Source of the DNA: a virus
Length of the DNA stretch: 34,104 bases
Strand: one strand, 5' to 3'
IMG/VR virus record: IMGVR_UViG_3300030090_001386
Coordinates: 1-34,104 of that record
Shown: one piece after another, positions 5,921-34,104 of the stretch
Numbering within the stretch: position 1 is the stretch's first letter
How the letters are laid out: the number at the start of each line of letters is the position of its first letter
Program-made: the position numbers and the translations under genes
The notes under the pieces: generated by a model
The model's input: the letters and a program-made list of their open reading frames with translations, nothing else
Told to the model about the DNA's origin: nothing
Databases searched by the model: none

Positions 5921-5938
5921 TTTTTAAGGACTTAAAAA
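5921..5938 (+). repeat. Dispersed palindrome copy 1 (between convergent operons)
   Basis: An exact copy of TTTTTAAGGACTTAAAAA (8-base arms, 2-base centre) fills nearly all of the 21-base gap between the end of the late operon and the end of the early operon. It may contribute to transcription termination in both directions, though an A/U-only stem is weak. The AAGGAC orientation matches the upstream plus-strand gene. Confidence 0.85.
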
Positions 5939-13756: not shown

Positions 13757-13988
13757 TTTCGGCATCCAACAATTTTTCATTTTCAAAAAAATCATACTTA
13801 ATTATAGTTTTAGGAGTTTTTAAGTCCTTAAAAACTTTTTCTTTTCCTTTGTTCAATGTAAGGCATTTTTGCCTATAATAGTCTAATTTATTATTTGTGA
13901 TATTTAGTTCTGTTTTAAGTACCATTGCATAAATTGATGGCAAACAAATTATCAAACCAAATATAACTGTACTAGTAAATTCAATCAT
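13743..13988 (-). CDS. Membrane-anchored protein with VFKDLKTP insert
   Basis: This 81-aa protein has an N-terminal membrane span (about 6-24, STVIFGLIICLPSIYAMV), a helical charged middle, and VFKDLKTP at 52-59, encoded by a copy of the dispersed palindrome. This resembles small spanin-like or anchored phage proteins only in general layout. It starts at ATG with AGGAG six bases upstream. Confidence 0.55.
   Translation of the reverse strand: MIEFTSTVIFGLIICLPSIYAMVLKTELNITNNKLDYYRQKCLTLNKGKEKVFKDLKTPKTIIKYDFFENEKLLDAENAKI
13817..13834 (-). repeat. Dispersed palindrome copy 3 (inside membrane-anchored gene)
   Basis: An exact 18-bp copy, sense to the gene, again read in the frame VFKDLK. The next bases (CTCCTAAAAC) partly match those after copies 2 and 4, so similarity extends beyond the palindrome. 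Confidence 0.9.
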
Positions 13989-15686: not shown

Positions 15687-15905
15687 TCACTCCTTATTTG
15701 TTGTTATCATCAAACAATCATCACATCGTACATTATCCTCATTGGCATCTAAATGAAATAATCCGAGTTCATTTAATTCAGTTTGTGTAAAACCACCAAA
15801 TCCGTAAAAGTAGCCATCAAAAAAGTTTCCAAGTTTATTACAGACATCGCAAGTACTCCACCCAATTTCATCCTCTGCTAAAACCATTTTATGTAGTTTA
15901 TCCAT
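15687..15905 (-). CDS. Small zinc-binding protein, 72 aa
   Basis: CDVC (about 19-22) and CDDC (about 61-64) flank an aromatic, Gly-rich stretch (FFDGYFYGFGGFTQ). The layout suggests a treble-clef or ribbon site. GGAG lies eight bases before the ATG. Function unknown. Confidence 0.6.
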   Translation of the reverse strand: MDKLHKMVLAEDEIGWSTCDVCNKLGNFFDGYFYGFGGFTQTELNELGLFHLDANEDNVRCDDCLMITTNKE

Positions 15906-15933
15906 TTTATTTACTCCATTTATTATTTATAAG

Positions 15934-15974
15934 TGGGTAGGGGTGGAATCGAACCACCCAAAAACCATTTACCC
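15934..15974 (-). other. tRNA acceptor/T-arm mimic
   Basis: The minus strand contains a canonical T-arm: GGTGG, loop TTCGATT, CCACC, followed by CCTACCC and A, as at a tRNA 3' end without encoded CCA. Ten bases before the T-arm, GGGTA can pair with TACCC, giving an acceptor-like helix with no D or anticodon arms. No full tRNA fits upstream. It may be a captured tRNA end, an att core or a tRNA-like RNA. Confidence 0.55.
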
Positions 15975-15986
15975 AAGTTGAAACGC

Positions 15987-16382
15987 TTATTTAGTAATTT
16001 TATCTAAAAAATAACCAAGTAAATTTTTATATGCGTTTACTCTTTTTTCATACGTTGTAGAGTTCATTTGATTCATTTGTGAAGCTAAATTATCAAACGT
16101 TTTTGTTGTTTCATAATCTATTCTCTTTCCTATTGGGCTATACCCTGTAGATATAATATATGTTTGATTATTGTGTTCAAATTCGTAGTAGTCACATGAC
16201 CAACCATTTACACCGCAAGAATATGCGAATGCATTTTCAAACCTTAATAAGTGCTGTAAATCACAATAACCTACAGAAAATAAATTGTCTGGATGTACAT
16301 TGTCTCTGATTTGTTTTTTTGTTGTTTTTATTTTCACTTTTTTTGTCCTTTTTTTGTTGTTAAATAAATTTTGAAAAGTCAT
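15987..16382 (-). CDS. Conserved-looking hypothetical protein, 131 aa
   Basis: A basic N-terminus (1-25) is followed by a globular part with AYSCGVNGWSCDYYEFEHNN and YIISTGYSPIGKRI, then a helical tail. The G-W-x-C-D-Y-Y and T-G-Y-x-P-x-G elements look like a family motif that I have seen in phages without a function. Its start overlaps the papain-like gene by 23 bases. The tRNA-like element lies directly after its stop. Confidence 0.55.
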   Translation of the reverse strand: MTFQNLFNNKKRTKKVKIKTTKKQIRDNVHPDNLFSVGYCDLQHLLRFENAFAYSCGVNGWSCDYYEFEHNNQTYIISTGYSPIGKRIDYETTKTFDNLASQMNQMNSTTYEKRVNAYKNLLGYFLDKITK

Positions 16383-33831: not shown

Positions 33832-34104
33832 AAACCCTTACACTCGAAGCAAACTTCTTAATAGATCAGAGATGTGAGGGGTGTATGTATCACGAGTACC
33901 CTTATGAGGCTCAAATTCCTATCTTAATTGAGGGTAAATACGAAACTCGTACATTCACATCAGATAAACAAGTTTGGGATGTTATTCATCTAATTATAGA
34001 TGAAACAAAAGAACTGATAAAACAGGGCAGTAATTTGAATGTCGCACAAGCTGTGATGGCTCAACTGCCCTTTTTTGCTTGTAGGAATATGATGTTAGAT
34101 AAGG
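33801..34104 (+). CDS. Tail assembly chaperone, frameshift extension (gpGT-like)
   Basis: This frame, one base behind the short form, is open to the window end and continues from position 1 to 214, giving a fusion of about 230 residues. The sequence after the shift reads SSRASTLGGVETLTLEAN; further on it has CEGCMYHEY. The G/GT pair guides tube assembly on the tape measure. The feature is split by the circular join. Confidence 0.75.
34055..34104. repeat. Contig-end overlap, right copy
   Basis: 48 of 50 bases match positions 1-50. Joining the copies removes 50 bases, leaving a circle of about 34,054 bp. Confidence 0.85.

Follow-up and report, generated by a model that had tools for sequence, protein, structure and literature searches.

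Several RNAs are known that reproduce part of a tRNA. In mitochondria, intergenic tRNAs or tRNA-like structures (t-elements) are proposed to release mRNAs by way of the tRNA-processing enzymes, a principle referred to as tRNA punctuation. The eukaryotic mascRNA of MALAT1 is a tRNA-like element at which an RNA end is formed by RNase P and RNase Z, and the bacterial Y RNAs (YrlA), which also occur in some phages, combine a mimic of the T-loop/D-loop elbow with a Ro-binding stem. Plant RNA viruses (TYMV type) mimic the top half of a tRNA at the end of the viral message, and the tRNA-like domain of tmRNA is made up of an acceptor, a T-arm and a D-loop without a D-stem. RNase P also cleaves small model substrates, the phage M3 and C4 RNAs and mRNAs (PMC11143913), the McClain/Altman AT1-type acceptor/T-arm substrates being anticodon-less minihelices of approximately 12 stacked bp.

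Here we describe a family of phage elements, the mini-tRNAs, which resembles each of these systems in part. They share their minihelix with the AT1-type substrates; the latter, however, are designed, whereas the mini-tRNAs are natural, numerous, intergenic and provided with a D-loop-like linker containing GG. From mitochondrial punctuation they differ in being a uniform anticodon-less family of bacterial DNA phages with a hairpin on the downstream side, their processing being putative. Unlike the plant virus structures, they lie between the genes of DNA phages, have no pseudoknot and are very short. Compared to tmRNA, they are without an mRNA-like domain or pseudoknots, measure 40-48 nt and match tmRNA models only below threshold. 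An anticodon arm, retained in reduced form by mascRNA, is absent altogether, and, in contrast to YrlA with its Ro-binding stem, the mini-tRNAs have no Rfam match.

The Element and Its Genomic Context

The window, i.e., the whole stretch of DNA that was analysed, is a 34.1-kb IMG/VR virus record with a GC content of 27-40% along its length. PHROGs assignments of its ORFs include a primase-helicase, a terminase large subunit, a major head protein, a tape measure protein and an endolysin; none of the ORFs scanned was identified as an integrase, in agreement with the initial annotation. Positions 1-50 and 34055-34104 form a 50-nt direct repeat (96% identical), which suggests a complete, terminally redundant or circular genome. 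The palindrome TTTTTAAGKMCTTAAAAA occurs six times in the window (at 5921, 11296, 13817, 15407, 16392 and 28888; chance expectation 0.01). At 13817, 15407, 16392 and 28888 the palindrome lies immediately 5' of a listed start codon; its core, AAGGAC or a close variant when read on the gene strand, resembles a Shine-Dalgarno site.

The element occupies 15934-15975 on the minus strand, as delimited by the fold and by matches to a descriptor and a covariance model (see below). Reading from 15975 to 15934, its 42 nt consist of the acceptor 5' strand TGGGTA (15970-15975), the D-loop-like linker AATGGTTTTT (15960-15969), the T-stem 5' strand GGGTGG (15954-15959), the T-loop TTCGATT (15947-15953), the T-stem 3' strand CCACCC (15941-15946), an unpaired C at the junction between T-stem and acceptor (15940, a mismatch position) and the acceptor 3' strand TACCC followed by A at the discriminator-like position 73 (15934-15939). 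The 3' flank CTTA (15930-15933), read against the family pattern N-C-notC-A, has C at the equivalent of position 74 and does not encode CCA. The full T-arm and tRNA-like 3' end of the initial annotation are thus borne out by sequence and fold, and the acceptor-like helix proposed for GGGTA is TGGGTA/TACCCA, with 6 bp in the minimum-energy fold. This earlier description as a T-arm and acceptor without the rest of a tRNA is right as to the missing anticodon arm but overlooked the linker, in which AATGGTT holds a GG as in a D-loop, so that the tRNA elbow is probably retained.

The element lies, as had been noted, downstream of a gene stop, beginning 11 nt past the stop of an upstream gene on the same strand (15987-16382, minus strand, 131 aa). 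The downstream gene (15687-15905, minus strand, 72 aa) starts 28 nt past the element and is preceded by a Shine-Dalgarno-like GGAG, read from the sequence, at 15914-15917 (minus strand). Neither protein has a PHROGs or Pfam match, and no hairpin is evident on either side of the window copy.

The minimum-energy fold comprises 6 bp of acceptor and 6 bp of T-arm at -15.7 kcal/mol, an unexceptional folding energy (z = -1.19; 30 of 200 shuffles fold equally well). As evidence, this single-sequence fold is weak and by itself uninformative; the support for the element beyond chance comes from comparison. A strict descriptor, which asks for at least 5 acceptor bp, a GG-containing linker, a 5-bp T-stem and the T-loop, matches once in the window and not at all in shuffled windows, and the covariance model R1, built from actinophage copies, matches 15931-15974 (minus strand) over its full length with 19.6 bits (E=0.064).

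A Widespread, Covarying Family

The primase of the window led to 80 related viral loci, three of which (L002, L003 and L081) contain the element with stem changes that compensate each other, e.g., GGGCAA/TTGCCC and GGGTG/CACCC, two of them (L002 and L081) in two copies apiece. The position corresponding to the unpaired C is paired in L002 (GGGCAA/TTGCCC), and AATGGTT is common to all three. A family pattern composed of this linker and the T-arm, AATGGTTN{1,12}GGTTCGATTCC, with the acceptor left unconstrained, retrieved at least 120 stretches in a viral scan, seven loci that overlapped or adjoined ARAGORN tRNAs being dropped (in several of these AATGGTT is part of a real tRNA). The five bases 5' of the linker pair at all five positions with the strand following the T-arm in 111 of the 127 unique elements listed, compared to 5.3% when partners are permuted, and the acceptors comprise 98 distinct 5-mers among the matches listed. 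For an independent AACGGTT pattern the acceptor pairs in 82 of 111 cases among the matches listed, vs. 8.9% upon permutation, and a third pattern, beginning with CTGGCAGA, gave 111 stretches in all.

The strict descriptor gave 479 non-redundant matches in 268 loci (counted before ARAGORN filtering), none when the 5.3 Mb of all loci were reversed and none in the mono-shuffled sequence of an earlier 4.15-Mb set. In an earlier descriptor set of 405, 17 matches overlap real tRNAs, and 345 non-redundant elements were left after their removal. Many loci were picked by pattern match, and family counts are therefore not a measure of prevalence.

The common layout is a coaxial helix of acceptor and T-arm of approximately 11-13 positions (3' strand length 10-13), in which a short D-loop-like linker replaces the D-stem, anticodon arm and variable loop. 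In a gap-free alignment (A3) of 56 copies, 98.7% of the cells are paired vs. 31-49% in slid controls, a percentage that is partly circular for descriptor-selected alignments; the permutation tests are free of this circularity. Two-sided changes occur in 11 of the 12 pairs, which indicates selection on the short structure, and RNAalifold arrives at these helices without prompting. All 56 actinophage-class copies have the linker GG, and the T-loop core is nearly invariant (GTTC.A). An additional covarying pair within the linker (columns 7-13; C-G/A-T/G-C) closes a five-base loop round the GG, which fits a retained D-loop/T-loop elbow in which the tertiary contact itself would be preserved. Judged from these sequence comparisons, the element of the window is a member of a widespread, covarying phage family and not a lone tRNA fragment.

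Cultured carriers include the Mycobacterium phages Papyrus (12 copies), Cuke (11) and Predator (7) and the Streptomyces phage Joe (at least 8). Direct BLAST of elements of 46-71 nt against named phages mainly returned true tRNAs, yet pointed to mycobacteriophages. Phage phiC31, considered as a candidate carrier, was rejected as no element was found in it. In host genomes the element is rare: the pattern detected it in 4 of 296 genomes of one family and a covariance model in 3 of 301 of another. Approximately half of twenty genome loci inspected encode clear phage proteins (MuA/MuB-like transposition proteins, terminase, Sak4-like protein, exonuclease). In six loci from bacterial genomes (L227, L268, L275, L294, L302 and L316, several of which are titled Bacteroidota) MuA- or MuB-like genes lie near the element, which suggests that Mu-like prophages commonly carry it.

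Relation to Annotated RNA Classes

ARAGORN predicts no tRNA at the window element, and nothing reaches the Rfam gathering threshold in the window or in the relatives. At E<=5, Rfam reports no tRNA around the window element, only weak matches, to Plastid-ycf2 and to tmRNA, that fall far short of their cut-offs. The former concerns the antisense of the element (15933-15974, plus strand; 20 bits, cut-off 65.7) and the Rfam Plastid-ycf2 5'UTR RNA, whose consensus resembles the antisense of a T-arm/acceptor. For Joe, Cuke and two further loci, Rfam lists only two true tRNAs, both in Cuke, and none of the 11 mini-tRNAs of that phage; no mini-tRNA is annotated as an RNA in the records of Joe, Cuke, Papyrus or Predator.

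When compared with tRNA (RF00005), the elements deviate from the cloverleaf by the absence of a D-stem and of an anticodon arm between acceptor and T-arm, but they agree with its top half in the stack of approximately 12 bp of acceptor and T-stem, the T-loop TTCRA and the G18G19-like D-loop. With t-elements and other tRNA-like structures they share an intergenic placement on the sense strand. A tmRNA was rejected in view of the 42-nt size and the negative ARAGORN and Rfam (gathering threshold) results, and an intrinsic terminator because no U-run follows the element or its downstream hairpin. A coding reading was likewise rejected: although the second copy in both L002 and L081 is spanned by a short in-frame peptide, neither the frame nor the length of the linker is conserved. 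Our literature search, confined to an open-access library, found no description of the element. The mini-tRNA family is probably new and apparently undescribed, and it seems to have escaped annotation because tRNA finders demand an anticodon.

Placement between Genes

A stop codon on the same strand lies within 250 nt upstream of 115 of 120 pattern-selected elements, at a median of 8 nt before the acceptor, and a same-strand start within 160 nt downstream of 91 (median 34 nt; same-strand distances counted in both cases); only four of the 120 fall inside a large ORF. By crude ORF calling many copies are scored as "inside ORFs" or antisense, which we tentatively attribute to poor ORF calling in GC-rich DNA. 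Naive calling is unreliable in GC-rich contigs and orientation was, therefore, scored on annotated phages, where all 38 listed copies of Joe, Cuke, Papyrus and Predator share the strand of both flanking genes. In these phages the copies fill successive gaps between small genes, mostly 6-15 nt past the stop; four overlap with an annotated ORF, in three cases close to its start. Those of Papyrus are scattered through the early genes rather than gathered at one att locus, and acceptor stems vary from copy to copy within a single phage.

Within 34 nt downstream, 85% of 39 copies from the four annotated phages have a hairpin of 6 bp or more, vs. 29% of other gene starts and 25% of random segments of the same phages; this hairpin usually begins 3-5 nt past the acceptor. 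Family-wide, an unusually stable downstream segment occurs in 54.5% vs. 12.4% at the distance control. Enrichment on the upstream side is weak (38% vs. 25-29% in the annotated phages; 31.7% vs. 17.4% at the distance control family-wide).

One locus has a different arrangement: at L106:1082-1778 (minus strand) five tandem mini-tRNAs and a degenerate sixth lie in a gene-free region packed with short AAC-rich repeats.

The Flanks Compared with Those of Phage tRNAs

The loci contain 337 real phage tRNA genes, of which 178 are without CCA. These CCA-less genes have C74 in 97%, C75 in 2% and A76 in 56% of the cases, and the mini-tRNAs have C74 in 65%, C75 in 6% and A76 in 49%, in a register blurred by the varying acceptor length; CCA is encoded in only four of 344 mini-tRNAs. 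Their 3' flank, N-C-notC-A, is thus of the type found in CCA-less phage tRNA genes, which suggests the same maturation route. The 5' side is different. Position -1 is A in 63% of the mini-tRNAs vs. U in 69% of the real phage tRNAs, and many mini-tRNAs have 11 stacked positions, not 12; consequently, 5' cutting by RNase P is possibly poor or absent. Of the two putative cuts, that on the 3' side is better supported.

Possible Function of the Mini-tRNAs

We favour, with moderate confidence, the interpretation that the mini-tRNA is a cis-acting punctuation mark of polycistronic phage mRNA that is cut by host tRNA-maturation enzymes. These would take its elbow for that of a pre-tRNA; an RNase Z-type cut would follow the discriminator, and a cut by RNase P on the 5' side is possible although less certain. 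Such cuts would separate neighbouring cistrons, so that the downstream mRNA would begin with a stable 5' hairpin just ahead of the Shine-Dalgarno site, and the upstream mRNA would end soon past the stop codon or carry the mini-tRNA as its end, to which CCA could be added. We infer, then, that the elements are transcribed and cleaved, by enzymes of this kind, to some benefit of the phage. Less easily reconciled with this reading are the A at position -1 and the stacks of 11 positions, the weak enrichment of upstream hairpins, the missing hairpins of the window copy and the many copies that crude ORF calling places inside ORFs or antisense. The suggestion in the initial annotation of a small tRNA-like RNA recognised by tRNA enzymes holds insofar as there is a covarying minihelix family with a CCA-less tRNA 3' flank; recognition by the enzymes is, in our reading, presumed. 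Whether phages of many bacterial phyla use dedicated, undescribed anticodon-less mini-tRNAs as portable mRNA punctuation, comparable to the mitochondrial tRNAs, is a wider proposition that we put forward tentatively.

The element begins approximately 8-10 nt past the stop codon, the strong hairpin is confined to the downstream side and position -1 is A rather than the U typical of tRNA leaders, all of which would also agree with an RNase Z-type 3' cut alone. The mini-tRNA would then remain attached to the upstream mRNA and form a CCA-tailed 3' end that resists exonucleases or enhances translation, like the tRNA-like structures of plant viruses. However, a free acceptor/T-arm helix resembles the model substrates of RNase P (PMC11143913), so that 5' cleavage would be expected unless specifically avoided, and we consider this variant rather unlikely. 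The tandem arrays of L106 in a gene-free region do not fit punctuation and, together with the tRNA-type 3' flank and the mimicry of the tRNA top half by the D-loop GG and invariant T-loop, would suit a released, CCA-tailed and perhaps aminoacylated small RNA acting in trans, for example as a sink for tRNA enzymes or as a decoy for host defences that modify or cleave tRNAs or target the 3' CCA. Yet the fixed sense-strand site just past stops and before starts points to a role in cis, the downstream hairpin is coupled to the element, and many phages seem to have a single copy. Moreover, the stem is different at each copy within one phage, as would be expected of a structural signal in cis rather than of a small RNA that acts through its sequence, and a trans-acting role thus seems improbable to us.

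The strict position between stop codon and Shine-Dalgarno site could also be that of a folded intergenic spacer or insulator (for ribosome release, decoupling of translation or blocking of decay) that is never processed by tRNA enzymes. A plain hairpin, however, would need neither the conserved T-loop TTCRA nor the GG of the linker nor the N-C-notC-A flank, and this explanation is very unlikely. The initial annotation had also proposed the captured end of a host tRNA, i.e., an attachment core. Here the resemblance is genuine, since a 25-nt part of the window element is identical to the 3' ends of real tRNAs on two large phage contigs. Nevertheless, a captured end, or a decayed tRNA gene, is hardly credible: the element possesses a linker and a compensatory 5' acceptor strand of its own, a single phage may contain as many as 12 copies that differ in their stems, the two-sided changes reveal selection on the short structure, the Papyrus copies are spread over the early genes rather than marking a single att locus, and the window ORFs scanned include no integrase.

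The mini-tRNAs number in the hundreds, with members in well-studied cultured phages, and form a structured RNA family that annotation seems to have overlooked. Should they be processed, tRNA maturation would be put to use by bacterial viruses in shaping their transcriptomes. The elements would in that case also provide RNase P, RNase Z and CCA-adding enzymes with natural substrates of minimal size, and would offer a possible compact tool to separate genes in synthetic operons and a target for the annotation of phage genomes. Direct testing is feasible since cultured phage-host pairs carry them.

Further Observations

In Corynebacterium phage PSonyx a mini-tRNA (L324:10825-10864) lies directly upstream of gene 91 (L324:9603-10781), which encodes an RtcB-like RNA ligase; this ligase might act on RNA ends made at mini-tRNAs.

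A second, longer RNA of approximately 145-172 nt is present in viral contigs, including two of the primase relatives (L008:5835-6004, L025:6365-6535 and L564-L577); two examples tested gave no Rfam family above threshold. It has a tRNA-like acceptor of 7 bp (GAGCCGA/TCGGCTC, GTGCCGG/CCGGCGC or GCCCTAG/CTAGGGC) and a T-arm, placed round a conserved insert, AAAAGTAAATCTATGGAAATG ... AATAGAGCC.
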